From positions 1-64,000 of the IMG/VR virus record IMGVR_UViG_3300048029_000212: a stretch of DNA of 64,000 bases, one strand, 5' to 3'. The DNA comes from a virus. Within the stretch, counting starts at the first letter, position 1. Each line of letters opens with the position of its first letter. The notes beneath the pieces are model-generated. The model was given only the letters and a program-made list of their open reading frames with translations, was not told the DNA's origin and did no database searches. The position numbers and the translations under genes were made by a program. Positions 6,890 to 22,638 of this stretch are shown here, piece after piece.

Positions 6890-6897
6890 TTATTACA

Positions 6898-6914: not shown

Positions 6915-6920
6915 AGTTAT

Positions 6921-6928
6921 TATAAATA
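6921..6928 (+). promoter_or_regulatory. T4-type late promoter
   Basis: Exact TATAAATA, 25 bases before the HNH gene at 6953. This is the -10 element used by T4 gp55-type late sigma with gp33 and the sliding clamp. Confidence 0.7.
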
Positions 6929-6952
6929 CTTCTAAACATAGGAGTATTTGAA

Positions 6953-7261: not shown

Positions 7262-7276
7262 CTACGCCATTATTTG

Positions 7277-7284
7277 TATAAATA
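7277..7284 (+). promoter_or_regulatory. T4-type late promoter
   Basis: Exact TATAAATA, 31 bases before the tagged kinase gene at 7316. Confidence 0.75.
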
Positions 7285-7315
7285 AATACATCTATCACCA
7301 ACAGACTGTATTACA

Positions 7316-8002
7316 ATGAAATCTTTTAAAACATTCCTAGACGAAGGTGTCAACGATCCAGCAATCTTCAAGGCGATCTTCCTTGCGGGTGGGCCAGGCT
7401 CTGGTAAGTCATTCATCGTCGGCAAAACTGGTTTGACCTCTATGGGTTACAAAGTTGTCAACTCCGATGACGCGTTTGAAGCTGCCATGAAGAAGGTTGA
7501 TATGGAGATGACTCCAGACAACATCTTCTCTCCGAAGGGTCAAGAACTTCGTGGTAAGGCAAAGAAGATTACTGGCAAAAAAGAGGAACGTTATCTGAAG
7601 GGACGCCTTGGTCTTGTCGTAGACGGTACTGGTAAAGATCCAGACAAGATTGCCGCGCAAGCAAAGAAGGTTAAAGAATTAGGTTACGATGTTGCGATGA
7701 TTTTCGTAAACACAGACCTTGATACTGCTATCAACCGTGATGCAAAACGTGCGCGTACTCTAGGCGCGAAAGGTGTTACTGAGTATTGGAAAGCAGTTCA
7801 GCGCAACGTCGGCAAGTTCCAACGCATGTTTGGTAAAGAGAACTTCTTGGTAGTTGATAACTCTGAAGGTAAGAACTACGAGAAAGAAACGTTAACTGCA
7901 TATCGTGATGCGAAGAAGTTTACGGACAAACCACACGGCGCGAAGGCCAAGCGTTGGATTGAAGTAGAGAAGCAAGCGATCAAACGCGTCAAAAATAGTT
8001 AA
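7316..8002 (+). CDS. P-loop kinase with capsid-targeting-like N-terminus
   Basis: A 228-residue protein. Residues 1-11 (MKSFKTFLDEG) resemble the capsid-targeting tag of T4 internal head proteins. The Walker A motif GGPGSGKS is at 25-32, followed by a conserved VNSDDAF and VVDGTGKD, the layout of zeta-toxin or polynucleotide-kinase type P-loop kinases. It probably phosphorylates a nucleic acid end or a small substrate with ATP. FLDE before Gly11 also fits the L-x-E cleavage rule of the T4 prohead protease. It has its own late promoter. Alternatives are a UDP-sugar kinase of the zeta-toxin type or a plain nucleotide kinase. Confidence 0.8.
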   Translation: MKSFKTFLDEGVNDPAIFKAIFLAGGPGSGKSFIVGKTGLTSMGYKVVNSDDAFEAAMKKVDMEMTPDNIFSPKGQELRGKAKKITGKKEERYLKGRLGLVVDGTGKDPDKIAAQAKKVKELGYDVAMIFVNTDLDTAINRDAKRARTLGAKGVTEYWKAVQRNVGKFQRMFGKENFLVVDNSEGKNYEKETLTAYRDAKKFTDKPHGAKAKRWIEVEKQAIKRVKNS

Positions 8003-8012
8003 TTATTCACAC

Positions 8013-8042
8013 TTGACAACCCCTAGCATAATGTAGTATACT
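8013..8042 (+). promoter_or_regulatory. Sigma70-type promoter of the peroxidase gene
   Basis: TTGACA at 8013-8018, 18-base spacer, TATACT at 8037-8042. It reads into the di-heme peroxidase from an intergenic gap, so that gene has its own host-type promoter. Confidence 0.75.
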
Positions 8043-8085
8043 TCTTATCGAAACTTGAAATAGAGTATTGAGAGGCTCTTATATT

Positions 8086-9498
8086 ATGAAGAAACTACTA
8101 ACTGTAGCTGTGTCTACGGCACTCCTGAGTGCATGTTCTGGCGGAGCAGATAACGCATCCGCCCCCGACCCTGTGGTCGTGACTCCCCCAACTGTAACAC
8201 CTGTTGATCCAGCAGTCGAGGCACGTGACAATCTACTCACGTTACTTGACTCCACATCAACGACAGGTTCATACGAAGAATACATCCTTCCCGACAGTGA
8301 TGACTTCGATAACATTCCGCAAGACCCAAGTAATCCTATTACTGCAGAGAAAGTTGCACTAGGTAAGTTAATCTATCATGAGACTGGTATCACTGAAGGC
8401 GACATTGCGTCCAGTGAAGGTACATTCTCGTGCGCGTCATGTCACAATGCCCAAAACGGATTCAAGTCTGGTATTCGTCAGGGTATAGGTGAAGGTGGTG
8501 TCGGTTTTGATCATCGCATGATCGCTGAGGGTGTCAATCCCGAAGACATCGATGTGCAACCTGTTGCAACACCCACTGTACTCAACACGGCATTCCAAGA
8601 AGTGATGTTGTGGAATGGTCAGTTAGGTAATGTGATTGCGGGTAATGTCAATGTTGGTATTGATCCCGATCGTCACTTCACAGAAGGTACTCCGAAAGAA
8701 GCAAACCTACGCAACTTTGCTGGTCTAGAGACACAAGCAGTTGCGGGTCTAGGTGTGCATCGTCAGGGTGACACAGATGATTCTATCCTGCGCACTAACG
8801 AAACTTATCGTGAGATGTTTGAAGCTGCCTACGGTGTTGCAGAACCCGACGATATGTTAGAGGCAACTGCACTAGCGATCGCCGCATACGAACGGACTAT
8901 TCTTGCGAATCAAGCACCCTTCCAAGCATACTTGAAAGGTGACGAAACTGCGATGACTGAATCTGAAGTCGCTGGTGCGGAAGTGTTCTTCGGTAAGGGT
9001 AACTGTTATGCGTGTCATAACGGACCTGCGTTGTCATCTCCCGTTGGTGCGATGGCAGACGAAGTGTTTATGACTGTCGGTTTCCACGATTTAGATATCT
9101 GGGAAGACACGGTCGGTGAAGTCAACGATGCGACTAGAGAGGGTCGTGGTGGATTCACTGGTGATGAGATGGAGAAGTTTGCGTTCAAAGTTCCGCCTCT
9201 TTACAACCTTATAGATACTACTGTATTCGGTCACGGTGCGTCGTTCTCTAGTGTAGAGGATGTCGTGCGATATAAAGTTGATGCGGTTCCCCAACACCCA
9301 CAAGTGGAGACGTATGACCTTGACTATCGGTTCACGCCGTTAGACTTGACCGAAGATGAGATTGCAAACCTTGTTGCGTTCCTTGAGAACGGTTTGCATG
9401 ATCCAGAGTTGATGCGATATGTGCCAGAGTCGTTACCAAGTGGCAACTGTCCTATCAACAACGATGAAGTGTCGCGTCAAGAACTTGGGTGCGACTAA
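8086..9498 (+). CDS. Di-heme cytochrome c peroxidase (CcpA/MauG family) lipoprotein
   Basis: A 470-residue protein. Lipobox LLSAC puts the lipidated cysteine at residue 17, followed by a Pro/Val-rich linker. Two heme motifs, CASCH at 116-120 and CYACH at 307-311, are spaced as in bacterial cytochrome c peroxidases, with the family words LGKLIYHE and TPTVLNTAF before and after the first heme. These enzymes reduce hydrogen peroxide to water with electrons from a small periplasmic cytochrome c. MauG enzymes share the fold and oxidise protein side chains, so the substrate is not proven. I start at 8086 (MKKLL), where the signal peptide begins. The gene is intact, stands alone between a sigma70 promoter and a tRNA region, and is very unexpected in a phage. 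Confidence 0.93.
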   Translation: MKKLLTVAVSTALLSACSGGADNASAPDPVVVTPPTVTPVDPAVEARDNLLTLLDSTSTTGSYEEYILPDSDDFDNIPQDPSNPITAEKVALGKLIYHETGITEGDIASSEGTFSCASCHNAQNGFKSGIRQGIGEGGVGFDHRMIAEGVNPEDIDVQPVATPTVLNTAFQEVMLWNGQLGNVIAGNVNVGIDPDRHFTEGTPKEANLRNFAGLETQAVAGLGVHRQGDTDDSILRTNETYREMFEAAYGVAEPDDMLEATALAIAAYERTILANQAPFQAYLKGDETAMTESEVAGAEVFFGKGNCYACHNGPALSSPVGAMADEVFMTVGFHDLDIWEDTVGEVNDATREGRGGFTGDEMEKFAFKVPPLYNLIDTTVFGHGASFSSVEDVVRYKVDAVPQHPQVETYDLDYRFTPLDLTEDEIANLVAFLENGLHDPELMRYVPESLPSGNCPINNDEVSRQELGCD

Positions 9499-9504
9499 AG
9501 TTTT

Positions 9505-9572
9505 GCGGAGTTCAGTATTGAGTCGGCGAGTACCCCTCGCTGAGGTAGGGGAAGTTCCTACGCTCCGCTCCA
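9505..9572 (+). tRNA. Degenerate tRNA-like element
   Basis: A 68-base element with a seven-pair acceptor (GCGGAGT with GCTCCGC, one T-G pair), T discriminator and encoded CCA. The anticodon arm is 5+7+5 with T33 kept (loop GTACCCC, anticodon ACC by position), and the T-arm is 5+7 but its loop is GGAAGTT instead of TTCRANN. The D-arm is shrunken and the variable loop is only 3 bases. Either a decayed tRNA or a tRNA mimic; it sits 30 bases before tRNA-Ala. Confidence 0.5.
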
Positions 9573-9584
9573 ATATTAATGTGG

Positions 9585-9592
9585 TATAAATA
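9585..9592 (+). promoter_or_regulatory. T4-type late promoter
   Basis: Exact TATAAATA, 10 bases before tRNA-Ala. Confidence 0.65.
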
Positions 9593-9602
9593 GACAGATA
9601 AG

Positions 9603-9678
9603 GGGGCTATAGCTCAGTTGGGAGAGCGCTTGATTTGCATTCAAGAGGTCGTGGGTTCGACTCCCTCTAGCTCCACCA
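9603..9678 (+). tRNA. tRNA-Ala (TGC)
   Basis: Acceptor GGGGCTA/TAGCTCC, anticodon stem CTTGA/TCAAG with loop TTTGCAT (TGC), T-loop TTCGACT, CCA encoded. The following 190 bases hold no convincing gene, only a 14-base palindrome at 9741-9754. Confidence 0.95.
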
Positions 9679-9868
9679 GTTCCCCCACAGAGTACGGTTA
9701 GTCTGACATAGAGTGAATTTTGCGCACGGGCGCACTGATAAGATCTGCAGATCTCTCAAATCGTGCATGTAAAAATGCCAGCAGAGTTATATCAAGTTTC
9801 ACCAAACAAAATGTCTAAAAGGCGCCGTACTTGTGGGGATCTTTTGCTATTGACAAGTGAGAGTTTTT

Positions 9869-10000
9869 ATGTTAGAATTCTTATTATATTTCTTTGCTAC
9901 CATTGGAGTTATATTAGTCTCCAGTGTAATCTTTTTATCATACCTCGTGAGAAGAGAGCGAAGATCCATAGATGAAAATGACTTGGATAATTATAGATAA
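9869..10000 (+). CDS. 43-residue membrane microprotein
   Basis: One hydrophobic helix (about residues 3-27) and an Arg-rich, acidic tail. A GTGAGAG ribosome site precedes the ATG and the TAA overlaps the next ATG by one base. I prefer it to a longer overlapping frame starting at 9763, which has no ribosome site. Confidence 0.55.
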   Translation: MLEFLLYFFATIGVILVSSVIFLSYLVRRERRSIDENDLDNYR

Positions 10001-10677
10001 TGTTTGAACATGTACCTATTGAATTGACTGAAATGAAAACGGAGAACCGCAATGGTCGCCGTGAGTATAAAACGCCCGAAGGTATCAACCTTCCCTCTAT
10101 AACCACCGTACTCTCTATACTTTCACGCGAGTCTATCGCAAAGTGGCGTAAAAAAGTCGGTAACGAAGAAGCAAACCGCATTTCTCATCGCGCATCTACA
10201 CGCGGTACTGCAGTCCATGAAGTGGTTGAGAAATACATCAACAATGAAGAGAGTTTCAAAAATGGATATACTCCAGATATTATTAGTAGTTTCCTTGATC
10301 TTCAGCCCATTCTCGATAGCCGCATTGGCAGAGTATTTGCACAGGAAGCACCTCTCTACTCCAATCATCTGGGTGTGGCTGGTCGTGTGGACTGTGTTGC
10401 TGAGTTTGATGGTAAGTTGTCTATCATCGACTTTAAAACCTCACTTAAACCAAAACGACTTGAATGGGTCAAAAACTATTTCATGCAAGAGTCCGCCTAC
10501 GCTATTATGTGGGAAGAACGGACGGGAAGGCCCATCACCCAACTAGTCACCATCATTTCTGTAGACAACCACGAACCACAAGTCTTTATTGAACATAGAG
10601 ACAATTGGGTTCGTCCTCTCCGCGACACAATTGCGCAATATAATGCAGAAAATTCTGGAAATGCCCTTGACATATAA
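10000..10677 (+). CDS. PD-(D/E)XK exonuclease (RecB/Cas4-like)
   Basis: A 225-residue protein. The nuclease core is GRVDCVAEFDGKLSIIDFKTS at about residues 128-149: Asp of the first acidic motif, then DFKT, the (D/E)xK motif. RGTAVHE near residue 69 is the usual N-terminal histidine motif of this family. It probably degrades or processes DNA ends during phage recombination or host DNA breakdown. Coupled by a one-base overlap to the microprotein upstream. Confidence 0.82.
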   Translation: MFEHVPIELTEMKTENRNGRREYKTPEGINLPSITTVLSILSRESIAKWRKKVGNEEANRISHRASTRGTAVHEVVEKYINNEESFKNGYTPDIISSFLDLQPILDSRIGRVFAQEAPLYSNHLGVAGRVDCVAEFDGKLSIIDFKTSLKPKRLEWVKNYFMQESAYAIMWEERTGRPITQLVTIISVDNHEPQVFIEHRDNWVRPLRDTIAQYNAENSGNALDI

Positions 10678-10680
10678 ATA
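10673..10680 (+). promoter_or_regulatory. T4-type late promoter
   Basis: Exact TATAAATA overlapping the exonuclease stop codon, 43 bases before the gene at 10724. Confidence 0.7.
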
Positions 10681-10723
10681 GTGTCTGTTATACTTACGAT
10701 AAAGTAATTACGGAGACTATTAC

Positions 10724-12127
10724 ATGGCAATGCTTGCTGGCGGGGACTTCAAGTTTTCTAAGCCATACTTAAACATGCTTGCTGACAAAATCACTAATGG
10801 TGAACCTGTTAAGTTTAAGGGCAATGTTTCTCAAGTAATCAATCAGACAGACTTAGTCAAAAAGTTTGTGTCTGCTGTAGAGAAACAAAACATAACTCAG
10901 GTCAATGTTTCGGCAAAGTCTGGAAATAACTATGCGCCTATATTCAATGGATATAAGTGGACCGAAATAGACAAGTCGCCGTTTAGTGGAATGGGCGGAA
11001 AAAGTGGTAAACCAGACGGTAAGACCACTGCGATGCAAGAACGAGCCAGTTTGTTAGCGATTCAGAAAGGTATTGAGAAAAATGGATATACTAATAAAGA
11101 AACGTTTTTAAAACTATATCGTGAAGATCTCTTGAAAGAATATCCTGCCATGGACGAATACTGGGAGAATGTTTTCTTTGAACAACAGAAGTTGACACAA
11201 CAGAAAGTTGGCAATACACAGTATGGTCACTACAGTCGTGATGGCGGGTTCATGGATTACATCACAGACACTTGTAAAGAGTTGTATGGCATAACACAAA
11301 AAGATACGTGGAACCCGGCTGACATTTGGTTGGTCGCAGATTTATCAAAGGCGAAACGAGACCTAGACTCAAAAATTAGGGATAACTCAACATCGCTTCC
11401 AGAGTTTAATGCAATTCTTCAAGATATGTTCAACAGTCGTCAAGTCGTAGGCATTTCTTTGAAGAAGATGTCCGGTAAAACTGCAAGATGGGAACTGGTA
11501 AACTTTGATGGAGAAGACCTATTTGACGGCGATGAATATCGGTTTGATTTTCAAGAATCAAAATTAAATCTGTCTCTGTCAGGCACTTCTTTTGTTAACA
11601 CAGAATCGTCTTTTCAGATTGCGTCGAGCAAGGTAACCATCAACTTTCAGATAAGACAGAACTCGCGTGGATTCAACAACTTAAAGATTGAAGGTACCGA
11701 TGTTAGTGCGCGGGCCGCGAGACTAGGTAAAGCGCCACTAGACATGGTCTCTGCGGCACTTAGATCTTATGGTGTCAAAAATTATGATCGGTGGAGATCT
11801 TGGAGAAAATATCCCCAAAGTCTAGAAGATTTTTTGAAAGAACAGGACGTTCACGTCGGGCGATTTAAATCACTTAATCGTACAGGTCGTGTTGAAATGA
11901 ATATCAAGTCAGAAAAAGAATTTATTGATAACATGCGAACAGTGTTTGACAGTTCGAAGAACGACAATGAAAGAGCTGTTGCGAATAGTAAGTTGATGCA
12001 GTTGGATTTGCTTAATGAGATATTTACGATACGTGACATTAATAAAGTAAGCGACCTTTTATCTGATATCTCATATCTTGGTCAGAAAAAGGGCGATCTA
12101 TTTGGACCATTTGCGAAACTATACTAA
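10724..12127 (+). CDS. Large late protein of unknown function
   Basis: A 467-residue soluble protein under a late promoter, in front of the tagged ligase-like gene. It has no signal peptide, membrane segment or clear catalytic motif that I can see. Late expression and neighbours suggest a virion or DNA-maturation role. I do not recognise the family. Confidence 0.7.
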   Translation: MAMLAGGDFKFSKPYLNMLADKITNGEPVKFKGNVSQVINQTDLVKKFVSAVEKQNITQVNVSAKSGNNYAPIFNGYKWTEIDKSPFSGMGGKSGKPDGKTTAMQERASLLAIQKGIEKNGYTNKETFLKLYREDLLKEYPAMDEYWENVFFEQQKLTQQKVGNTQYGHYSRDGGFMDYITDTCKELYGITQKDTWNPADIWLVADLSKAKRDLDSKIRDNSTSLPEFNAILQDMFNSRQVVGISLKKMSGKTARWELVNFDGEDLFDGDEYRFDFQESKLNLSLSGTSFVNTESSFQIASSKVTINFQIRQNSRGFNNLKIEGTDVSARAARLGKAPLDMVSAALRSYGVKNYDRWRSWRKYPQSLEDFLKEQDVHVGRFKSLNRTGRVEMNIKSEKEFIDNMRTVFDSSKNDNERAVANSKLMQLDLLNEIFTIRDINKVSDLLSDISYLGQKKGDLFGPFAKLY

Positions 12128-12128
12128 T

Positions 12129-13349
12129 ATGGAAAACTTCAGTAACTTTATCACAGAACAAAAGAATACGCATATGACTCACATCGAGGACAAGGTCCTG
12201 TACGGTGGAGTTGACGGGACGCGTCAGGCAATCAATGCCTTGCGTGGACTACGCGATATGTTATCTGGCACATCAAAAGGTCGCATCTCTGTAAAGTGGG
12301 ACGGTGCGCCTGCGATCTTCTGTGGTACCGATCCTTCAGACGGCGAGTTCTTCGTTGCTAAGAAAGGCATCTTCAACAAGAACCCAAAGGTCTATAAGAC
12401 CGACGCAGACATTGATGCTGATACGTCGGGCGATCTAAACTCTAAGTTGAAAGACGCGCTCAAGTATTTACCAGCTCTAGGCATCAAAGGCGTCATTCAA
12501 GGCGACTTTTTATTCGGTGATGGAGATGTCACTACTAAGACCATTGACGGTCAGAAGTACAGCGTATTTCACCCAAACACAATCGCATACGCAGTTCCCT
12601 ATGATCAAGCGAAAGAAGTACGTGCCGCTAAGATCGGTATCGTATGGCACACAACATACACGGGTACATCTTTTGAGAACATGAAAGCAGACTACGGTGT
12701 TGATGTCAGTAAGTTGCGAAAGTCACGCAACGTATGGTCACAAGATGCGATGTTAAAAGATGCGACTAAAGCTACAATGACTGAACGCGAAACCAAATCG
12801 GTCAATGATTTACTAACACAGATAGGTCGTCTATTCAAACAGACTTCTGCAACTACCTTGAAAACTGTCGCGGACAACCCCGAGTTCGCACAGTCAATCG
12901 AGACATACAATAACTCATTCGTTCGTGCGGGTACAGTACTTCCGGACTCAAGAAAGCACGTTAACGGACTGATAAGTAACAGACAAGCCTACTACGCAAA
13001 AGAGATTGCAAGTAAGAAATCTCAGCGAGGTAAGGACAATTGGATTGCCAAAATGAAGGATGAGATGGAGTTTTTCTCTGCCACAAACAAGGCAAACCTA
13101 GTAAAAATGTTTGAGTTGCAAAAATTGATCGTATTAGTGAAATTAAAACTTATAAATAGTTTGGACAAACTTAAATCGATTGATACTTTCGTGAAAACTT
13201 CTAATGGTTACAAAGTGACTGGCGAAGAAGGATATGTTGCAATTGATACACTTGGTGGTGACGCGGTGAAATTGGTTGACCGTATGGAATTTTCATACAA
13301 CAACTTTTCGTCCGATATATTAAAGGGTTGGGATTCAGCTCGTAGATAA
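12129..13349 (+). CDS. Ligase-like nucleotidyltransferase (DUF6267 type) with capsid-targeting-like tag
   Basis: A 406-residue protein starting MENFSNFITEQ, close to the T4 capsid-targeting pattern, with ITE as a possible L/I-x-E cleavage site. KWDG at 56-59 has the K-x-D-G form of the ATP-dependent ligase nucleophile motif. FFVAKKG and GVIQGDFLF further on sit where ligase motifs III and IV would be. I believe this family is named DUF6267 in T4-like phages. It may be an RNA or DNA ligase. Start chosen just after the upstream stop; a longer frame would run into the previous gene. Confidence 0.75.
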   Translation: MENFSNFITEQKNTHMTHIEDKVLYGGVDGTRQAINALRGLRDMLSGTSKGRISVKWDGAPAIFCGTDPSDGEFFVAKKGIFNKNPKVYKTDADIDADTSGDLNSKLKDALKYLPALGIKGVIQGDFLFGDGDVTTKTIDGQKYSVFHPNTIAYAVPYDQAKEVRAAKIGIVWHTTYTGTSFENMKADYGVDVSKLRKSRNVWSQDAMLKDATKATMTERETKSVNDLLTQIGRLFKQTSATTLKTVADNPEFAQSIETYNNSFVRAGTVLPDSRKHVNGLISNRQAYYAKEIASKKSQRGKDNWIAKMKDEMEFFSATNKANLVKMFELQKLIVLVKLKLINSLDKLKSIDTFVKTSNGYKVTGEEGYVAIDTLGGDAVKLVDRMEFSYNNFSSDILKGWDSARR

Positions 13350-13381
13350 CATGGAATAAACCAATAGGGGATAAGATAGTT

Positions 13382-13753
13382 ATGCTATCGTTTAAACAGT
13401 TCGTAAGCGAAGTGCTTGATGCGACCCAACGTCGCAAGCTCGCTATGAAAATGAAAAAGAATAAAACTCGTATTGCACTAGGTCGCAAACGCGCAGAACG
13501 TAAGATGGCTTCGAAAGAGGTTCTTCAGAAACGTGCACGTCGTCAAGCAAGAAAGGCGATGGTATCAAAAATCACCAAAGGTCAAGACAAAGGTGATATG
13601 TCTATTGCTCGTAAGAAAGAAATCGAGAAGCGTTTAGCGAGACCTGCTGTACAATCACGAATAGACCGTCAGTCACGTAAGTTGATGAAAACGGTTCGTC
13701 GCCAAGAGATAGATAGAAAGAGAGCTAAGAGACAGGGCGGCGCAGAAAAGTGA
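13382..13753 (+). CDS. Very basic tagged protein, probable internal head protein
   Basis: A 123-residue protein in which nearly four of ten residues are Lys or Arg. It begins MLSFKQFVSEVLD, a capsid-targeting-like tag. High charge and a short N-terminal tag are the two hallmarks of T4 internal head proteins, which bind packaged DNA. Its stop is GTGA, overlapping the next gene's GTG start. Confidence 0.7.
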   Translation: MLSFKQFVSEVLDATQRRKLAMKMKKNKTRIALGRKRAERKMASKEVLQKRARRQARKAMVSKITKGQDKGDMSIARKKEIEKRLARPAVQSRIDRQSRKLMKTVRRQEIDRKRAKRQGGAEK

Positions 13754-15087
13754 TTAAGAATTTCAGTCAGTACCTCGTTGAAGAAGAACGCGAGGTCTAC
13801 TTTACATTCGGACGTATGAACCCACCTACCGTAGGACACGGTAAGGTGATGGACGCGTTAGCGCAGAAGTCAGGCAAAGCTGACTATAAAGTCTTCGTGT
13901 CACAATCCCAAGACGCGAAAAAGAATCCTCTGTCGTATACCGACAAAATCAAACACACTCGCAAGATGTTTCCAAAACATGCACGGAACGTCATGGTTGA
14001 TAAGTCTGTCAAGACCGCTATCAACGCAATGGTCACACTGTACAACCAAGGTTACAAGTCAGTTACTATGGTTGTCGGTGCAGATCGTATTACAGAATTC
14101 GAAGTCCTGTTGAACAAATACAACGGACAGAAAGCAAGACATGGTTTTTACAATTTTAAAAGCATTAAGATAGTATCTGCAGGTAAGAGAGATCCGGACG
14201 CTAGCGGCGTAGAGGGTATGTCTGCCTCTAAACAAAGAGAGAACGCGTCAAAGAATGATTTCGTTGCATTCTCTCAGGGCGTTCCTAAGTCTATGTCAAA
14301 CCCAGACACACGTAAGTTATTCAACGACGTGCGTACAGGTATGGGACTCAAGGAAGCCAGCGAATTCCGTAATCACTTAGAACTAGAAACAGTATCAGAA
14401 ACTCGTGAACAATATGTTTCGGGTGAACTGTTTGGAGTTGGTGATACGGTAGTTATTAAAGAATCTGAAGAGATCGCTACCGTATCCGTTCTAGGTGCGA
14501 ACTACGTTATCGTAGAAACATCTGACGGTAAGAAACTACGCAAGTGGTTAGATTCTGTTGAGCTTGTTGAGAAACAAGATCCAGACATCAAAGATCGTGA
14601 GGGTACTCAGCCTGCACGATATCACTCCGGACTGAAGAAGTCCACCAAAGCAAAGCGCGATGCGCACTTCAAGAAACACGGCAAGAAAGATGACGACGAT
14701 TCATCTGCCTATAAACCTGCGCCTGGAGATAAGACCGCCAAGACTAAACCATCCAAGTATACCAAGTCGTTCAAGGATATGTACGACGAAGATTGCTGGG
14801 ACGGTTACAAACAAGTCGGTATGAAGAAGAAGGGTAAGAAGATGGTACCGGACTGTGTACCAGAAAGCACTGATTTAATTGAGAACTGGGTGACCGATTT
14901 AATGAATCGTGTCGGTTCAAAAACTATAAATAAAGACAAATATCGCAAAGTGGCGCAACACATTAAACGTGAGATGCAAAAGGGTAAGTACACGTCTCCG
15001 GAGTTTGCAGCCGCAGATACCATTCGCAAGTTCAGTCTAGATATTGACGCAAAAGTACTTGCGGGAATGATAAGGAAATTGGCATGA
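13750..15087 (+). CDS. Nucleotidylyltransferase-like protein with tag and C-terminal modules
   Basis: A 445-residue protein with a GTG start overlapping the previous stop. Tag MIKNFSQYLVEEER, then a Rossmann nucleotidylyltransferase domain with GRMNPPTVGH (signature [HT]xGH at 27-30) and GVEGMSASKQR, the usual S-x-x-x-R partner. This is the NMN/nicotinate or cytidylyltransferase-like superfamily. After about residue 210 come separate modules: a small beta domain ending RKWLDSVELVEK, a Lys/Asp-rich SAYKPAPGDKTAKTKPS segment, and a CWDGYKQVGMKKKGKKMVP module, each typical of marine T4-like phages. Probably multi-domain virion cargo. Confidence 0.8.
   Translation: MIKNFSQYLVEEEREVYFTFGRMNPPTVGHGKVMDALAQKSGKADYKVFVSQSQDAKKNPLSYTDKIKHTRKMFPKHARNVMVDKSVKTAINAMVTLYNQGYKSVTMVVGADRITEFEVLLNKYNGQKARHGFYNFKSIKIVSAGKRDPDASGVEGMSASKQRENASKNDFVAFSQGVPKSMSNPDTRKLFNDVRTGMGLKEASEFRNHLELETVSETREQYVSGELFGVGDTVVIKESEEIATVSVLGANYVIVETSDGKKLRKWLDSVELVEKQDPDIKDREGTQPARYHSGLKKSTKAKRDAHFKKHGKKDDDDSSAYKPAPGDKTAKTKPSKYTKSFKDMYDEDCWDGYKQVGMKKKGKKMVPDCVPESTDLIENWVTDLMNRVGSKTINKDKYRKVAQHIKREMQKGKYTSPEFAAADTIRKFSLDIDAKVLAGMIRKLA
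14935..14942 (+). promoter_or_regulatory. T4-type late promoter inside the nucleotidylyltransferase gene
   Basis: Exact TATAAATA, 142 bases before the gene at 15084; it could drive that gene and the propellers behind it. Confidence 0.5.
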
Positions 15088-15356
15088 TATCTTTTAAAAA
15101 CTATCTTGACGAAAAACGATATTCAGTATATGATAGTATTGATCTGGACGAAGGTCCGGATGGTATCGCTGCGAAGGCGAAGAAGTCGGGTATCTCACCA
15201 GATACCTTGAGAAAAGTTTATAATCGTGGAGTTGCTGCGTGGAAGACAGGTCATCGGCCTGGCACCACACCGCAACAATGGGGAATGGCGCGAGTCAACG
15301 CGTTCATTGTTAAAAAGAAAAAAGGCGGCCTAAATCACGATAAGGATTTGGCGTAA
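15084..15356 (+). CDS. Small tagged protein with DUF5824-like domain
   Basis: A 90-residue protein. It begins MISFKNYLDEKR (capsid-targeting-like), has a second L-D-E site in DSIDLDEGPDG near residue 23, then a compact domain (GISPDTLRKVYNRGVAAWKT, later PQQWGMARVNAF) that is common in T4-like marine phages and that I associate with DUF5824 or a relative. The two L-x-E sites flank what would be a short removed propeptide. ATGA overlap with the gene before. Confidence 0.7.
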   Translation: MISFKNYLDEKRYSVYDSIDLDEGPDGIAAKAKKSGISPDTLRKVYNRGVAAWKTGHRPGTTPQQWGMARVNAFIVKKKKGGLNHDKDLA

Positions 15357-15382
15357 TCTAATTAAAGATAACGGAAACTAAA

Positions 15383-16705
15383 ATGGGATTCAAATTAAGA
15401 CCAGGCACTTCAGTATTTGGAAACGTTACGTTTACTCCAGGCACTAACGAGAACTATGTTGCACCACCAGAACCTCCGATACCATTGTCAACAAATCCAC
15501 TTTTCTTGTTATCACAATACGATGACACTCCAGAAAATGGTCCTATTAATGATGGTTCGGTATACATCTATGACCTAGATGACCTTACACAAGAACCTAT
15601 TATAAAGGTTTCTTCAACGGAAGGTGGTCAATATGGAAGTTCGGCATATAGATCTTCAAAGTACCTTTTTATTGGGAGTAGGGGGGTTGACTCAGAGACC
15701 GTAAGCAGCCAAGGCGTGGTTTATGTTTATGATGTCAATGATTTAAATCAACTCGTCACAACATTATCGCCTTCAAATCCAACTGAATATATGCAGTTTG
15801 GTCTTTCTCTTTCAGGCGATGAAGATTCTCTTCTGGTGAGCTGTTGGAGTGGCGGAATTGCATATTTGTATGATATGAACGATCTTTCAGCCGACCCTAT
15901 AGAAATCTCAGAACCAGTAGATGGATTCTCCTTTGGTAGAACTGCACTTGTTCTTCCCAATCATATTGTACTCAGTGAACTGGGTTACTCACACAACTTA
16001 GACAGTGCAAACTACCTGTACTCAGGTGCTATGTGGGTTTACGATAGAAACGATTTATCATCACCACCAACATTAGTTGAACAACCTGAGGGGCCCTTTA
16101 AATATAGTCAGTTTGCAAAATCACTTGATTTATCTGTAGACGGATCTAAGTTTGTAGTAGGATGCGCTGGTGTTGGAAATATATACGTCTATGATTCAAA
16201 CAACCCATTGAATCCCCCACTTTATGAATTTATCTTATCCGCAGAATTAAAAAACAGGTATTATGCGGAACCTAATGAAGCTCAGTACTCAAGCGTGCAA
16301 AACGCTTTAAATGATACTCACTTTGTTACCGGTTTTCACCTGTTTGACGGCCAAGACGTTAATGGTGACTACTTGACTGCGGGTAGAGTTTATATTTGGC
16401 CTCACGACGATCCATCTGCGACACCAACTACTCTTTCAGGATTTGACTTGGGCATTACCAGAGACAGTTTAGGCACTCCTGCTTGGAATCCAGAGTTTGG
16501 GAATGCAGTTAAAGTTGTTGGTGATAAACTTATAGCTTCTTCTAATGAAGGTACTCCAGAAATTCCGGATAGACCAGGCACAGTTCGTGTTTTTGATATA
16601 AACAACTTGTCTTCGCCTTTAAAAACAATCACGCAACCATATTCTGAATATGTGCCTCACGATTTATTTGGAGTTTCTCTGTATGCGCCTGGACCACTTG
16701 ATTAA
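15383..16705 (+). CDS. Seven-bladed beta-propeller structural protein (FG-GAP-like), copy 1
   Basis: A 440-residue protein. After a short leader (MGFKLRPGTSVFGNV) the sequence has seven imperfect repeats marked by a VYxYDxNDL strand motif, as in FG-GAP/integrin-type propellers. Repeats are more diverged than in the next gene. The leader is similar to those of 16725 and 31906, suggesting a shared attachment or assembly module. Probably a virion surface or adhesion protein; late region. Confidence 0.7.
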   Translation: MGFKLRPGTSVFGNVTFTPGTNENYVAPPEPPIPLSTNPLFLLSQYDDTPENGPINDGSVYIYDLDDLTQEPIIKVSSTEGGQYGSSAYRSSKYLFIGSRGVDSETVSSQGVVYVYDVNDLNQLVTTLSPSNPTEYMQFGLSLSGDEDSLLVSCWSGGIAYLYDMNDLSADPIEISEPVDGFSFGRTALVLPNHIVLSELGYSHNLDSANYLYSGAMWVYDRNDLSSPPTLVEQPEGPFKYSQFAKSLDLSVDGSKFVVGCAGVGNIYVYDSNNPLNPPLYEFILSAELKNRYYAEPNEAQYSSVQNALNDTHFVTGFHLFDGQDVNGDYLTAGRVYIWPHDDPSATPTTLSGFDLGITRDSLGTPAWNPEFGNAVKVVGDKLIASSNEGTPEIPDRPGTVRVFDINNLSSPLKTITQPYSEYVPHDLFGVSLYAPGPLD

Positions 16706-16724
16706 TATAAGGAATTAAAAGAAA

Positions 16725-17966
16725 ATGGCAACTAAAATTACATCGGGATCAATCTTTAGTGCGGGTGCAGTAGTCACTGGAGTAGACGCAGACGCGCCTC
16801 CAGCAGTTCCTTCTCCGTCACCAGAACCAGCACCGGAACCAGCCCCATCTGCAAACTGGTTGGTAGTTGGAGTACCATATTCAGATATAGATTTCACAAA
16901 CTCTGGTTCAGTCTACGTCTATGACATTAACAACTTATCTGATCAATCAACAAAATTAATTTTAAGCGGTAATGGACGATTTAATGATCAGTTTGGTAGT
17001 TCAGTTGGTGCTACGGCCGATAAAATCTTTGTCGGCACACCACATGATGACGACAATGGATCTGATTCTGGTGCGGTATACGTCTATGACGCGAACGATC
17101 TATCTGCTCAACCAACTAAGTTAACAGCATTCGATGGTGCTGCAAGTGATAGATTCGGCAAACAACTTTCTGCCAATAATGGTAAGTTAGTTGTTGCCGC
17201 GGAAAGTGATGACGACAACGCCGCAGAAAACTCAGGTTCTGTATACGTTTATGACACCAACGATCTGACAGCGCAACCAACTAAACTAACAGCGTTTGAT
17301 GGTGCTACGTCTGATTCCTTTGGAACCTCAGTTGATGCGACATCTGATAAGATCGTCGTTGGTGCACTTAACGACGATGACAACGGATCTAACTCTGGTT
17401 CAGCTTACGTCTATGACGCCAATGATCTATCTGCTGCACCTACCAAACTAACAGCGTTTGATGGAGTGCAGGGTGATAACTTTGGAATCTCAGTTGTTGC
17501 TACTGACGATAAGATTATTGTTGGTGCACATTATGACGATGACAACGGATCTAACTCTGGTTCAGCTTACGTCTATGACTCAAATGATCTTTCTGCGACA
17601 CCAACGAAACTAACAGCGTTTGATGGAGCTGCGGGCGATAACTTTGGAAAATCAGTTGCTGCTATTGACGATAAAATCTTTGTCGGATCTCCAAACTTCG
17701 GACCAGAGGATTCTGGTTCAGTATATGTTTATGACGCCAATGATTTATCCACACAACCGACTAAACTGACCCTACCCACTGGCCTGTTCGGAATGTCAAT
17801 TGATGCGCTCCTTGATAAACTAATTGTTGGCGCTCCAGGCGATGATGGTTACACGGGTTCTATTTATATTTATGATACTAATGATCTATCTGCGCAGCCG
17901 ACTAAACTGGTCCCATTCGATAGCATAAGTCCAGATTGGGTCGGATATTCGGTCTCTATAGGATAA
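16725..17966 (+). CDS. Seven-bladed beta-propeller structural protein (FG-GAP-like), copy 2
   Basis: A 413-residue protein with a Pro-rich linker (residues 25-42) and seven repeats of about 55 residues. Each has a VYVYDANDLSAQPTK core followed by a DDDNGSxSG acidic turn, which looks like a calcium-binding FG-GAP loop. Several repeats are very alike at the DNA level, pointing to recent duplication or conversion. Likely a surface-exposed adhesin-like virion component. Confidence 0.75.
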   Translation: MATKITSGSIFSAGAVVTGVDADAPPAVPSPSPEPAPEPAPSANWLVVGVPYSDIDFTNSGSVYVYDINNLSDQSTKLILSGNGRFNDQFGSSVGATADKIFVGTPHDDDNGSDSGAVYVYDANDLSAQPTKLTAFDGAASDRFGKQLSANNGKLVVAAESDDDNAAENSGSVYVYDTNDLTAQPTKLTAFDGATSDSFGTSVDATSDKIVVGALNDDDNGSNSGSAYVYDANDLSAAPTKLTAFDGVQGDNFGISVVATDDKIIVGAHYDDDNGSNSGSAYVYDSNDLSATPTKLTAFDGAAGDNFGKSVAAIDDKIFVGSPNFGPEDSGSVYVYDANDLSTQPTKLTLPTGLFGMSIDALLDKLIVGAPGDDGYTGSIYIYDTNDLSAQPTKLVPFDSISPDWVGYSVSIG

Positions 17967-17968
17967 TT

Positions 17969-18181
17969 ATGAAAAAGTTTACTGAAATAAGAGAAGCAAG
18001 GCGGTCTGCACAAGACCGTCTTTCCGCACGTGCGTCGAAACATGGTCTTGGGTCTCAAAAGAAACTAGACAGGATCAAGAAGTCGGCTGACTTTTTCAGT
18101 AAACCACCACCATCCTTCTCCAAGGCAGAATTAAAAAAGATGGGATATGCAGTAGAACAATTAAATAAGGACAACGTATGA
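17969..18181 (+). CDS. Small tagged basic protein
   Basis: Seventy residues, starting MKKFTEIREARR, a capsid-targeting-like tag; the remainder is Lys/Ser-rich. I start at 17969 rather than at an in-frame ATG inside the propeller gene. ATGA overlap with the next gene. Candidate internal head protein. Confidence 0.6.
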   Translation: MKKFTEIREARRSAQDRLSARASKHGLGSQKKLDRIKKSADFFSKPPPSFSKAELKKMGYAVEQLNKDNV

Positions 18182-18357
18182 GCAAATCGAAGAAACCACG
18201 TAACAAGAAAATGTCTGCTGCAAAAAAAGAAAGACTGCAACAGGCAACCGACAACAACTACGGCGGTACTAGTTTTAATCCTATAAATAGTAAAGTTAAA
18301 ACAGTCAATCCAGTTGCCGGAACGAAGGTATTTCGAGGCGCATCAAGAGGAAGTTAA
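18178..18357 (+). CDS. Small basic protein
   Basis: Fifty-nine residues, beginning MSKSKKPRNKKMSAAKKER, no membrane segment. Overlaps the previous stop by ATGA. Contains a late promoter octamer within its coding sequence. Function unknown; charge suits nucleic acid binding. Confidence 0.55.
   Translation: MSKSKKPRNKKMSAAKKERLQQATDNNYGGTSFNPINSKVKTVNPVAGTKVFRGASRGS
18282..18289 (+). promoter_or_regulatory. T4-type late promoter
   Basis: Exact TATAAATA, 74 bases before the modular gene at 18363. Confidence 0.65.
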
Positions 18358-18362
18358 ATAAA

Positions 18363-19610
18363 GTGAAAGATTTTTTTGAACTAAGAGAATCCGCAAATAA
18401 AGATAAGTTTGTGGTGAAGTACGCAATGTCAAAGAAAGGGCCGATTCGTACGATGCCTTTTAACCTATTAGTGTACGCCAAGAAATTCCTTGCTGATAAG
18501 GAAAAAGAAGGATACAAGGGTATCATTTCTAAAGGTGGCAAACCTGTAAAGGAGTCAGTTGAACTTGATGAAGCAACAGCAAAGATCAAGACAACTATGG
18601 CAGACAAGGTTTCTTCGGGCGCAACACGATTTGGTCTGAAAGCAACCACATCGGGCGGCCATGTCAGTATCAGTGGACCAAAAGGCAAACTGAATGACTT
18701 CATGCGGTCCGTCATCGGAAAGTCTTCGTATGGCAATGCAAGTGACGTGAGCGAGTCAGTCGAACTTGACGAAGCAAAACTTTCTGATATGGGTATTCAC
18801 AACAAGATCGCCGATCGAAACCTACTTATCAAAGCAGTCAAAACTGCCGAAAAAATGGGCGGTAATATGACAGGTGCTGTTCGCGAGATTGAGAAAATGA
18901 AGAAAGGTCTGTCTAAGCATAAGGCAGTACAAGCGGCACTTCGTCAAGCAAATGAGTCAGTCGAACTTGGTGAATCCAAGTACAACAAAGGCGCTGTCGA
19001 TAAAGAGATCAAAAAAGATCGTCGTATCAAAGGCAAAGAGTCGAAAGCCATTCATTCACTACTCAAAGGTCGCACCCCAAGAAAAGAAGATATCGAACTT
19101 GACGAAGCCGCAGATTTTGAAAAGATATCTAATGAACTCTTGAAACATAAGAAAAAGGGTATTGAGTTCGAGAAGGCCGCTGCATTCGCACGTGTTATGT
19201 TTATGAATTCCTCTTTAAGTGTACAGGATAAGGCATTCATGGGTTTGACTAAGTTGCTCAAGGATATGGACGACTTGGTAAAGAAGACCACTATTACTAA
19301 AATCCTAAAAGATAACGGATTCAGAGTGAAAGGTGGTAAACTCATGCGTGAAGGGTTAGAGGAATCAGTAGAATCGCTTGATGAAAATTACCGAACTCTT
19401 GCAACTAAAGGCATGGGCGCAGAGACAAAGAACTCAATCAACGTTGGAAGAGGTGTTGATTTCTACGAACCTAAGAATGGCGATAAGAGAATGGGTAAGA
19501 TCACTAAGATGACCAAATCTGGTTATGTGGTCAAAGACGAAAAGGACGGTAAGTCTTATACATTCGCTTTCCACGATCGCACCAAGGCAAAGGCATTACT
19601 TTCAAAATGA
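18363..19610 (+). CDS. Modular late protein with repeated ESVELDEA cleavage-like sites
   Basis: A 415-residue protein with a GTG start. The N-terminus MKDFFELRESANK is tag-like. Five copies of an ESVELDEA-type motif start at about residues 64, 131, 198 (ESVELGES), 242 (EDIELDEA) and 333 (diverged), separating unrelated small basic modules. L-D-E before Ala matches the L/I-x-E cleavage rule of the T4 gp21 prohead protease, so the protein may be cut into several small internal head peptides. The module after the third site closely resembles the stand-alone protein at 49696. A KGGKLMREG and a KITKMTKSGYVVKDEKDGKS module follow. Stop overlaps the next ATG. Confidence 0.75.
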   Translation: MKDFFELRESANKDKFVVKYAMSKKGPIRTMPFNLLVYAKKFLADKEKEGYKGIISKGGKPVKESVELDEATAKIKTTMADKVSSGATRFGLKATTSGGHVSISGPKGKLNDFMRSVIGKSSYGNASDVSESVELDEAKLSDMGIHNKIADRNLLIKAVKTAEKMGGNMTGAVREIEKMKKGLSKHKAVQAALRQANESVELGESKYNKGAVDKEIKKDRRIKGKESKAIHSLLKGRTPRKEDIELDEAADFEKISNELLKHKKKGIEFEKAAAFARVMFMNSSLSVQDKAFMGLTKLLKDMDDLVKKTTITKILKDNGFRVKGGKLMREGLEESVESLDENYRTLATKGMGAETKNSINVGRGVDFYEPKNGDKRMGKITKMTKSGYVVKDEKDGKSYTFAFHDRTKAKALLSK

Positions 19611-19924
19611 AAAAGTTTAAACAGTATGTAGAAGAAAGATGTTGTGAGGCGTGTAAGTCTCTCGACGAAGAGTTAGAACTCAGCGAGGCGGAGTATCAGG
19701 GCAAGACTGTTACATTGAACAAACCTGTACGTGGTGGCTCTAAGAAGTTCTACGTGTATACAAAGAACGAGAAGGGAAATGTCGTGAAGGTCTCATTCGG
19801 TGATCCGAATATGGAGATTAAAAAAGACAACCCTGCTCGTCGTAAAAGTTTTCGAGCTAGGCACAATTGTGCAGATCCTGGCCCGAAGTGGAAGGCACGA
19901 TATTGGTCGTGTCGCGCATGGTAA
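19607..19924 (+). CDS. Tagged protein with conserved Cys/Trp C-terminal domain
   Basis: A 105-residue protein. Tag MKKFKQYVEERCC, then ELELSEAEY, another possible cleavage site, then a domain with KFYVYTKNEKGNVVKVSFGD and an end rich in Cys and Trp (RHNCADPGPKWKARYWSC). I have seen this domain as a common marine phage protein with no assigned function. ATGA overlap with the modular gene. Confidence 0.7.
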   Translation: MKKFKQYVEERCCEACKSLDEELELSEAEYQGKTVTLNKPVRGGSKKFYVYTKNEKGNVVKVSFGDPNMEIKKDNPARRKSFRARHNCADPGPKWKARYWSCRAW

Positions 19925-19932
19925 TTGATTGT

Positions 19933-19940
19933 TATAAATA
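19933..19940 (+). promoter_or_regulatory. T4-type late promoter
   Basis: Exact TATAAATA, 87 bases before the gene at 20027. Confidence 0.65.
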
Positions 19941-20026
19941 AACACAAACCTTAAACCATAAGTCAACTAATTATATAATAATTATCATATGACTTATATT
20001 ATCAATACTAATGGGCTGATCGAGAC

Positions 20027-20338
20027 ATGGCAGATAACAACCTAATTTTACAAGAGCATGTGCAACGTGAAGAGCAACGCCTCGCAAGAATCGAGGACAA
20101 AATAGACAAGCTTTCCGATGCAATGATTGATCTTGCAAGAGCGGAAGAAAAGCTTATTAACATTGAGAAGGCGAACTCACAACACTTTGAACGTATGAAT
20201 CGTTTCTCAACTCGAATGGACGAAATCGAAGATAATGTTCAAGAACAAGGAAAGACTGTTAAAGTAATGCAGTATATTATTACATTATCTGCAACAATCT
20301 TTGCCGGTGTAGTCATCAAAATTTTCTTTGATGCATAA
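20027..20338 (+). CDS. Coiled-coil protein with C-terminal membrane anchor (XhlA-like)
   Basis: A 103-residue protein: a long heptad-repeat helix (about residues 10-78) followed by a C-terminal transmembrane helix (about 82-100). This is the layout of XhlA-type haemolysin/holin accessory proteins. Probably inserted in the inner membrane late in infection. A role in lysis is an inference from the fold type. Confidence 0.6.
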   Translation: MADNNLILQEHVQREEQRLARIEDKIDKLSDAMIDLARAEEKLINIEKANSQHFERMNRFSTRMDEIEDNVQEQGKTVKVMQYIITLSATIFAGVVIKIFFDA

Positions 20339-20357
20339 TTAATTAACGGAGACTATA

Positions 20358-21206
20358 ATGTCAGATATCACTAAAATTATGGAGGCGTATTTGGGAATGG
20401 TCTCCGAGCCTCAGGCAGAGGAAACTCTAGAGGAAGCAGTAAACATGGGGCCGTGGAATCGCGGTGCTATTAATAAAGCAATGTCTAAAGCGGGCATCAA
20501 AGGTCCACAAGCCAAGGCATTCATCGCAGCATTGCGTGTGTCTGGAACTGTTAAAGAAGAAGTCGAATCAGAACTAGACGAAGCCTGTGGCAAAAAAACT
20601 TACAAAGAAGGACAGAAAGAATGTCCTAAGTGTGAAGGCAAAGGTTGTGATCACTGCGATAACAAAGGTTATCACGAAGTGTCTGAAAAGAAACTTGATC
20701 CAGTAGACGATAAAGAGAACGATAAGAAGTTCAAAGATCGTAAGGACAAGGACATCGATAATGATGGCGATACAGATTCTTCTGACGAATACCTACACAA
20801 GAAGCGTGCCGCAACGGACGACGCGATCGATGCAAAGGATGACGAAGAGAATCCTGTCAAGAAAAACCCTAAGACTGCTGATAAGAAATCAGAGATCTCC
20901 AAGATCGAGAGTCTAGACCTACGTGGATCGTTTGCAGATATGTGGTCGGCATTTGCTGAAGCCGCAAATCCTAAGAAAGGCGCACTTGCTCCTGAAAAAT
21001 ATGATGATCATTCTTCTGAACATGACAAGAAAGTCATTGGTATGCACAAGAAGTCTGATAAGAAAGTTGAAGGCGAAGAAGAAGATAGTCATAAGAAAAC
21101 TTTTGCTGCTGCTAAGGCAGTCAAGAAACAAGCGCCTGCACGAAGTGGTGCAGACAATCTATCTAATGGTGATAAGTCAGTCATCAATCCAGTAAAAGGA
21201 AAGTAA
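20358..21206 (+). CDS. Acidic-basic late protein with zinc-knuckle motif and cleavage-like sites
   Basis: A 282-residue protein of low complexity, very rich in Lys, Asp and Glu. The N-terminus MSDITKIMEAYLG is weakly tag-like; ESELDEACGKK near residue 73 resembles the repeated site of the modular gene at 18363. It is followed by CPKCEGKGCDHCDNKG, a DnaJ-type zinc knuckle, and an acidic DIDNDGDTDSSDEY segment that could bind calcium. A second folded region starts near ESLDLRGSFADMW. Composition resembles scaffold or internal head proteins; I cannot assign it to gp67, gp68 or gp22. Confidence 0.6.
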   Translation: MSDITKIMEAYLGMVSEPQAEETLEEAVNMGPWNRGAINKAMSKAGIKGPQAKAFIAALRVSGTVKEEVESELDEACGKKTYKEGQKECPKCEGKGCDHCDNKGYHEVSEKKLDPVDDKENDKKFKDRKDKDIDNDGDTDSSDEYLHKKRAATDDAIDAKDDEENPVKKNPKTADKKSEISKIESLDLRGSFADMWSAFAEAANPKKGALAPEKYDDHSSEHDKKVIGMHKKSDKKVEGEEEDSHKKTFAAAKAVKKQAPARSGADNLSNGDKSVINPVKGK

Positions 21207-21207
21207 T

Positions 21208-21426
21208 ATGATCAAGGCTCCTAAGTGGTGTAGTAACGCAGTTCCTTCTAGGGCTGGTTGGTTAGACCCATATACAGGCGAAGTTCTAAAAATGCAGAAC
21301 TTTTCTAAGGAACAGATTGCAGAATGGCATGAAGCCAAAAACCCTACTCCAGTCAAGAAAAAACCTAAAGTAGTAGAACCTGCAGAAGACGTACCTTACA
21401 TCTTCGAAGTAAAAGATTCAGAGTAA
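21208..21426 (+). CDS. Small conserved late protein
   Basis: Seventy-two residues; the N-terminal half (WCSNAVPSRAGWLDPYTGEV) looks like a small folded unit and the C-terminal half is Pro/Lys-rich. It starts 1 base after the previous stop and is followed by a strong terminator, so it is the last gene of this late unit. Function unknown. Confidence 0.6.
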   Translation: MIKAPKWCSNAVPSRAGWLDPYTGEVLKMQNFSKEQIAEWHEAKNPTPVKKKPKVVEPAEDVPYIFEVKDSE

Positions 21427-21442
21427 TCTAACTATTCTTTTG

Positions 21443-21470
21443 AAACCGCAGTTGATACTGCGGTTTTTTT
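21443..21470 (+). terminator. Rho-independent terminator
   Basis: ACCGCAG and CTGCGGT form a seven-pair stem with a six-base loop, followed by a run of T. It ends the tagged-protein late unit. Confidence 0.9.
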
Positions 21471-21512
21471 GTGCGTCTAAATAAATCTGACCACACTTCT
21501 AAAGTCTTTATC

Positions 21513-21869
21513 ATGAAGCTAACAAAAAACAATTTGGTTGTGTATGCTGCCAAACATTACTATAACCCTAAGCACATTGACGGTGAAGAGTTTTTTGACG
21601 ACCTGAAAAAATTTAAATATGTTAAACGATTGATTAATCGGTATCATCAAAATGGCGATCTAGCAGAAAGATTAATACTCAATCACCTCATCGTCATTTT
21701 CAACGTATTTGGTCACGAGGCTGGAGTAGAGATGCTCGCCCTTAAAATACCTCTAGAACAATGGACTACCCTCAAACCCTTTTTGGTATTTCTTCGCGCA
21801 ATACGAACCGAAGACATCACAGGTATAGAAATGGATAAATACGTAATAGATAAATTGAGAGCACTCTAA
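21513..21869 (+). CDS. Conserved T4-like phage protein (DUF7207 type)
   Basis: A 118-residue helical protein beginning MKLTKNNLVVYAAKHYYNP. I have the impression of a family of unknown function in marine T4-like phages. I start at 21513; the in-frame ATG at 21471 lies in the terminator tail. One-base overlap with the next gene. Confidence 0.65.
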   Translation: MKLTKNNLVVYAAKHYYNPKHIDGEEFFDDLKKFKYVKRLINRYHQNGDLAERLILNHLIVIFNVFGHEAGVEMLALKIPLEQWTTLKPFLVFLRAIRTEDITGIEMDKYVIDKLRAL

Positions 21870-22462
21870 TGGGAATCCTTAAGTCAGCGGCGGACATCGT
21901 CTATACAATTCGTTTCTTGAAATTACTCGTGACTAAGTTCGAGGATACCAACGCATTTAAGGCGGGTATCATTGACGCGGACGGAAACAAACGAAAAGAT
22001 TTCTCTATGGACACAATGGATAACCGTGACGCATACAGATCGCACTACACCGCATTCCATCGTCTTGTATTCAATCTAAAGAGGCTTATGGCAAAGGTGC
22101 CTGGCGGATCATCTATTGTCGCACGATACGGTGCTGCACTTGCGTTGATCAAAGAACACGGCGAACTGTCCGACAATCAAATCCAAAAGATACACGAAGA
22201 GACGGGCATTGATCTAATGGAAGCTCTACTAGAGAACTCTAAGTGGTATGTAATGTCAGACGGGAATTTGGGTCCTGGCCTCTACCGCATACAAAATGAC
22301 ACGATGACAGATCAGGCAGAAGAGATAGTCCGAAAAGACGATAAGATTCGTGTGGAAGAAAATAACCTAAGTTGCGATATCTTGGGCATCCCAGTTTACG
22401 AAGGCACACATATTAAAACCGGCCGCAGAGTTTTGTTCTCTGCAAATGAGATTGCGAAATGA
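21869..22462 (+). CDS. Conserved T4-like late protein
   Basis: A 197-residue protein with FEDTNAFKAGIIDADGNK near residue 30 and a helical middle. Strongly conserved in cyanophage-type genomes as far as I remember, but without function. It is sandwiched by coupled genes (one-base and four-base overlaps). Confidence 0.65.
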   Translation: MGILKSAADIVYTIRFLKLLVTKFEDTNAFKAGIIDADGNKRKDFSMDTMDNRDAYRSHYTAFHRLVFNLKRLMAKVPGGSSIVARYGAALALIKEHGELSDNQIQKIHEETGIDLMEALLENSKWYVMSDGNLGPGLYRIQNDTMTDQAEEIVRKDDKIRVEENNLSCDILGIPVYEGTHIKTGRRVLFSANEIAK

Positions 22463-22638
22463 AGACGTATCGAGAGTTTATAAAACAGTTTGATGAAGAA
22501 ATCACCAACAATACCAGTGGTGTGCCTGGCGCAGGTGACGATTCTTCTACCGTCATCATACGTAAAAAGTACGATCGTAAAAATAAGCGCAAAGACGCTG
22601 TCAAGATTTTGCGCAGACTCCTACCAAAAAAAATCTAA
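22459..22638 (+). CDS. Small tagged basic protein, closest match to T4 internal protein start
   Basis: Fifty-nine residues. The start MKTYREFIKQFDEE is nearly the T4 IPIII start as I recall it (MKTYQEFIAE). The remainder is short and ends in a Lys/Arg-rich stretch. ATGA overlap with the gene before. Good candidate for an internal head protein. Confidence 0.65.
   Translation: MKTYREFIKQFDEEITNNTSGVPGAGDDSSTVIIRKKYDRKNKRKDAVKILRRLLPKKI

Follow-up and report, generated by a model that had tools for sequence, protein, structure and literature searches.

The capsid-targeting sequence is known from phage T4, and reviewers have proposed that it enables T4-like phages to pack varied proteins (PMC9026906). 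Virion cytidylyltransferases of cyanophages are also already known (PMC9602691, PMC10665884), and polyvalent proteins, such as DarA and DdrB of P1, which are cleaved and packaged, are thought to enter the host with the DNA (PMC5512222). Here we describe a gene cluster in bases 1–64,000 (the window) of a virus record of 160,050 bases, IMGVR_UViG_3300048029_000212, the whole of which was also scanned, in stretches. About ten products of the cluster begin with a ten-residue leader, M-x-x-[FY]-x-x-[FY]-[LIV]-x-E (the tag), or with a variant of it. The phage is a marine, Kyanoviridae-like T4 relative of about 160 kb, and the nearest named relative of the window is Phage C48C1 (Kyanoviridae), with 82% identity across 45% of the region.

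We consider it highly probable that the tag serves as a capsid-targeting sequence of the T4 type on a shuffled set of cargo proteins, partly polyproteins cut by the prohead protease gp21, that would be delivered with the DNA. The T4 internal proteins IPI–IPIII are alike in the ten-residue pattern, in its key positions 4, 7, 8 and 10, in the presence of gp21 in the genome, in the LxE rule, in being late genes and in having small basic members. They differ in that the cargo described here is far broader, including a kinase, a ligase-like protein and a cytidyltransferase, with about 20 families in relatives and with polyproteins joined at LxE. No sequence relation was found between the bodies of the tagged proteins and the T4 internal proteins.

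Tagged genes of the window

A strict pattern, M..[FY]..[FY][LIVM].{1,2}E, was set before any relative was inspected and run on the 2932 open reading frame (ORF) starts of the whole genome. Five starts match, all within the cluster at 7316–19924 (7316, 12129, 13382, 15084 and 19607). Three further genes carry clear variants: at 13750 the tag is displaced by one residue, and 17969 and 18363 have a second form, M-x-x-F-x-x-[LI]-R-E-[AS] (pattern M..F..[LI]RE[AS]), which occurs at three starts genome-wide. The original prediction that ten genes share a T4-like tag holds for these strict matches and clear variants and is weaker for its last two members. The protein at 22459 retains the targeting half, has Q in place of E at position 10 and matches only a loose pattern; its C48C1 homologue begins MKTFQEFMKQ, and T4 gp61.1 begins MKTFKEFIKE. 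The protein at 20358, with the weak start MSDITKIMEAYL, fails both forms and is doubtful. That prediction included neither the polyprotein form described below nor the tagged gene that lies in the head cluster at 126364, and it counted 20358, here judged doubtful, as a weak member. The genes are as follows, with a slash at each predicted cut.

7316..8002, + strand: P-loop kinase (AAA_33 / Zeta_toxin; Pfam 1.2e-10), strict tag MKSFKTFLDE/GVNDPAIF
10724..12127, + strand: phrog_1462 protein (2.3e-71), untagged, upstream of DUF6267 in a slot of varying content
12129..13349, + strand: DUF6267 protein (Pfam 6.7e-107), strict tag MENFSNFITE/QKNTHM
13382..13753, + strand: small basic protein, strict tag MLSFKQFVSE
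13750..15087, + strand: cytidyltransferase (Pfam CTP_transf_like; phrog_3041 2.4e-71), GTG start, tag MIKNFSQYLVEE
15084..15356, + strand: DUF5824 protein (Pfam 3.3e-19), strict tag MISFKNYLDE, then IDLDE/GPDG ahead of the domain
17969..18181, + strand: small protein, second tag form MKKFTEIRE/A
18363..19610, + strand: modular protein, GTG start, second tag form MKDFFELRE/S, six modules of 44–93 residues with ESVELDEA-type linkers
19607..19924, + strand: "EYQGK" domain protein (phrog_7595 8.8e-14), strict tag MKKFKQYVEE, then ELELSE/AEYQGK
20358..21206, + strand: doubtful member, MSDITKIMEAYLGMVSE, with one SELDE/A linker
22459..22638, + strand: small protein, MKTYREFIKQ, loose pattern only
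126364..126561, outside the window: tagged head-cluster gene, second tag form MKTFQELREA, between a gp67-like gene and the gp21 protease gene, in the place of gp68 in T4

The cluster had been placed in a late-promoter region, and the motif agrees: TATAAATA occurs 25 times on the + strand versus 4 times on the − strand, with sites immediately upstream of 7316, 10724, 18363 and 126364. Also borne out by the Pfam and phrog matches was the claim that the tag sits on very different proteins, including enzyme-like ones (the kinase, the ligase-like DUF6267 protein and the cytidyltransferase). DUF6267 has conserved ligase-like nucleotidyltransferase motifs (KWDG, of the form KxDG; EGYV; K). Because a sequence search of the PDB returned nothing relevant and a fold search, in which DNA ligase IV ranked first, was not significant (E 0.39), its identity as a ligase stays a suggestion. 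When the ten proteins were screened with PADLOC for functions in defence or counter-defence, the matches were no more than marginal, and an RNA fold in the gap upstream of 18363 was not significant.

The set varies among relatives. The slot upstream of DUF6267 holds differing proteins in different phages, tagged in 25 of 78, and homologues of the untagged phrog_1462 protein are tagged in other phages (e.g., MLKFSSFLSE). The 13382-type small basic protein is found fused with the kinase or the cytidyltransferase elsewhere, and the N-terminus of the 17969 protein recurs 14 times among related loci. The cytidyltransferase matches 545 phage records, in only some of which the tag was checked. A distant kinase homologue in Aeromonas phage avDM6 (Straboviridae; locus L255, 3001–3849; 29% identity) starts with MKTFREFVKLEE, and tagged kinases may thus extend beyond Kyanoviridae.

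Could such a motif arise by chance in an AT-rich genome whose proteins are rich in Lys, Phe and Glu? These residues are indeed frequent here, and the loose pattern has 16 scattered matches in the genome; the strict matches, however, are confined to the cluster. In 80 related loci, 140 of 14,712 coding-strand starts are tagged versus none of 6532 on the opposite strand, and only 32 of 321,516 internal control positions match. The second form behaves likewise (79 of 28,447 starts versus 0 of 7863), and the tag written as a DNA pattern matches 49 times across 19 phage genomes versus 7 times for its reverse. These strand, internal-position and reversed-pattern controls refute a chance origin, to which we assign a negligible probability.

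It is also very improbable that the motif merely reflects descent from one ancestor, or an N-terminal helix common to a single paralogous family, and has no sorting role. The genes are adjacent on one strand and fusions link some of the small families, as paralogy would have it, but when the bodies of 168 tagged proteins are clustered, 23 groups result, of which about 20 are credible and unrelated. Kinase leaders vary in sequence and length (8–17 residues), yet every one ends in LxE, and the distant phage T4 has the same motif, with an experimental function, on IPII and IPIII. The clustering of protein bodies disfavours a single family. The original prediction had treated loss of the tag residues in homologues as a sign against it; the residues proved to be conserved.

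Targeting residues and the prohead protease

T4 IPII and IPIII both begin MKTYQEFIAE, the sequence given for them in the original prediction. The strict pattern, run on 49 kb of T4, finds only these two among 773 starts, and the DNA pattern, run on the whole T4 genome, adds gp61.1 (MKTFKEFIKE). This 54-residue hypothetical protein (AF158101 18966–19130, minus strand; locus L258) may belong to the internal head proteins without having been recognised as one.

Mutants of T4 IPIII assign residues 4 and 7 to targeting and residues 8 and 10 to cleavage (PMC9026906). In our leaders, positional information content is concentrated at the same four positions in DUF5824 and in DUF6267, the latter having been picked by a pattern that itself fixes positions 4, 7, 8 and 10. 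In EYQGK leaders only positions 4 and 7 are conserved, and the LxE is located farther downstream. Since the DUF5824 and EYQGK leaders were picked only by M-x-x-[FY] plus the domain, position 7 was observed in these two families independently of the selection. Two DUF6267 leaders have K for E, MFNFKGFITK (locus L239, 4189–5406) and MFSFKGFVTK (locus L241, 1175–2398); with the targeting residues present and the cleavage site gone, they are a natural test separating targeting from cleavage.

The protease itself is encoded by the phage, in a gene at 126563–127222 with a PF03420 match at 126620–127060 (4.4e-42). The end of the gp23 propeptide reads GGFLTE/TGP here and GSFLTE/AEI in T4. The proposal of capsid targeting followed by gp21 cleavage appears well supported by the residues dissected in T4, by the presence of gp21, by virion proteins of cyanophage S-CREM2 and by LxE at the joints of movable domains.

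Virion proteomes of related phages

Published virion proteomes support the packaging of tagged proteins, the data for S-SZBM1 being mixed. The S-CREM2 virion comprises 52 proteins (PMC10665884). The strict pattern picks out gp6 (an S-adenosylmethionine (SAM) hydrolase), gp14 (an APH-like kinase) and gp154 (a cytidylyltransferase) in S-CREM2, and all three are virion proteins, as are 52 of its 219 ORFs (p 0.013; 0.0022 among non-structural proteins). The pattern excludes F at position 8; when F is permitted there, gp136 is added and four of four are in the virion (p 0.0029; 2.7e-4 among non-structural proteins). A further widened, loose pattern lost specificity on S-CREM2 (3/5) and was set aside. 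The Cas9-like virion nuclease of the same phage, gp12 (OR473000 7704–10313, minus strand; locus L091), has LRFASFMAEA at residues 17–26, behind a short leader; given this tag and its detection in the virion, it may be packaged cargo.

Homologues of the 13750 protein, described as NMNAT-like proteins or cytidylyltransferases, have been found by mass spectrometry in virions of S-CREM2, S-SZBM1, S-SCSM1 and S-SM1, and the tag is present in all three of these proteins that were read, those of S-CREM2, S-SZBM1 and S-SM1. The S-SM1 protein, whose virion presence was reported (PMC3037559), starts MKKFSAFLNE. In S-SZBM1, the cytidylyltransferase MRFRQFIIEA was detected in the virion and the untagged DUF6267 protein was not (PMC9146016). 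The papers on these virions proposed no packaging signal; the tag provides one.

Presence in the head could also mean that the tagged proteins are parts of the prohead core or scaffold, which enter by way of the tag and shape or fill the prohead, with no delivery of effectors. Within the head cluster, one tagged gene does stand where gp68 would be, a number of the tagged proteins resemble T4 core material in being small and basic, and IPIII influences head assembly too (PMC9026906). Enzymes such as the kinase and the cytidyltransferase, or the SAM hydrolase and Cas9-like nuclease of S-CREM2, would nevertheless be odd scaffold components, and, unlike core head genes, the set of tagged proteins varies between phages, as does the slot upstream of DUF6267. 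We therefore regard a scaffold role as unlikely, though less remote than chance or paralogy, and favour packaged cargo.

Domain joints, candidate polyproteins and delivery

The kinase, DUF5824 and EYQGK domains are each found both as separate tagged proteins and inside long proteins. When the joint triplet is scored as [LIVMF]xE on distinct sequences only, it lies directly at the joint in 52 of 52 cases for EYQGK, 66 of 67 for DUF5824 and 18 of 18 for the kinase (136 of 137 in total). For the EYQGK and DUF5824 joints, the background is 3–9% in the same proteins and 11–16% after shuffling. In the 18 distinct kinase homologues LxE comes right before G-x-x-D-P, behind unrelated leaders of 8–17 residues, and a kinase domain that begins 849 residues into a chain has LxE at the same place. 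One 1265-residue protein (L215) combines cytidyltransferase, DUF5824, kinase and EYQGK domains, and other combinations occur in loci L191, L195, L209 and L245. The ESVELDEA-type linkers are almost restricted to the 18363 gene and its two neighbours; the modules of the 18363 protein, for which cuts are predicted near 18572, 18773, 18974, 19106 and 19385, are reordered among relatives, of which L024 has as many as eight linkers.

These joints would look like gp21 sites between cargo modules. We lean towards a model in which marine T4-like phages carry exchangeable cargo, with tagged polyproteins entering the prohead whole and gp21 cutting the LxE joints to yield separate effectors. If so, recombination at the linkers could let the phages add, fuse or shuffle the enzymes that they inject. 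The 18363 protein and the L024, L191 and L215 polyproteins resemble polyvalent proteins in having several distinct domains per polypeptide (PMC5512222). They differ in that the modules are small, the LxE linker is repeated, a T4-type tag stands in front and the modules also occur as separate tagged genes; a Pfam search of the tagged window proteins found none of the typical polyvalent domains (metallopeptidase, ART, DdrB-like ParB, PBECR and others). The ejection proteins of the giant phages SPN3US and phiKZ are alike in that many head-packed proteins are processed by a prohead protease. They belong to another phage lineage and have different propeptides.

Several observations weigh against packaged and delivered cargo. 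The virion data come from the proteomes of relatives. Two small S-SZBM1 proteins with perfect tags, _191 (MKSFKSFLSE) and _192 (MKTFKQYITE), do not appear in its 30-protein mass spectrometry list, and pooling S-CREM2 with S-SZBM1 under the strict pattern gives 3/5 (p 0.053). DUF6267 starts without a tag in the cyanophages P-HM2, S-CAM9 and S-SZBM1, and for this reason it is not necessarily cargo in every phage. At their called starts, some fused proteins (L215, L209) lack the tag. Finally, injection into the host we infer solely by analogy with T4; the earlier interpretation is supported for targeting and gp21 cleavage and remains an extrapolation for host delivery.

With packaged cargo as the preferred explanation, we propose the following sequence of events. 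The tagged genes would be expressed late, from promoters at the TATAAATA sites, and the aromatic residues at positions 4 and 7 may dock each tagged protein on the prohead core. The gp21 protease would then cut after [LIVMF]-x-E at the end of the tag and at domain joints, freeing mature cargo within the head before DNA fills it, so that DNA is packaged around the cargo. The kinase, ligase-like DUF6267, cytidyltransferase, DUF5824, EYQGK and small basic proteins would enter the next host with the DNA. Such cargo would be modular, one domain serving either as a separate tagged protein or as one bead of a longer polyprotein. Its probable task in the host is the repair or modification of nucleic acids or the countering of defences; from the kinase, ligase-like DUF6267 and cytidyltransferase, our guess is an action on nucleic acids or nucleotides.

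Other features lie in and around the cluster. A di-haem cytochrome c peroxidase (CCP_MauG, 6.5e-24) with a lipoprotein-like signal, an unusual phage auxiliary gene also found in C48C1, is encoded at 8068–9498, between the tagged kinase and an exonuclease. At 15383–17966 the tagged cluster is split by two adjacent untagged proteins that contain VYDANDLSAQPTKL-type repeats; the second of them is an FG-GAP beta-propeller (2.5e-75). Eight tRNA genes (Asn, Leu, Asp, Pro, Arg, Gln, Ser and Ala) lie at 2570–9678, several immediately 5' of the tagged cluster.

A literature search found no paper that links the T4 tag with the cyanophage virion cytidylyltransferase, none that reports the tag from marine phages and none on cargo polyproteins with LxE joints. 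The occurrence of kinase, DUF5824 and EYQGK as separate tagged proteins or in polyproteins with [LIVMF]xE joints is apparently new, with priority uncertain because the search excluded subscription papers and preprints.

What is the relevance of such a tag? Proteins packaged in the head are a phage's first strike on its host, and outside T4 they are difficult to recognise. The signature would account for the cytidylyltransferase, kinase, SAM hydrolase and Cas9-like nuclease in cyanophage virions, and it would supply protein delivery with a natural list of parts. Should the polyprotein form be confirmed, a prohead protease would have gained a new use. If virion enzymes of marine T4-like phages can be predicted from a ten-residue signature, many of their "hypothetical" genes would become testable cargo.

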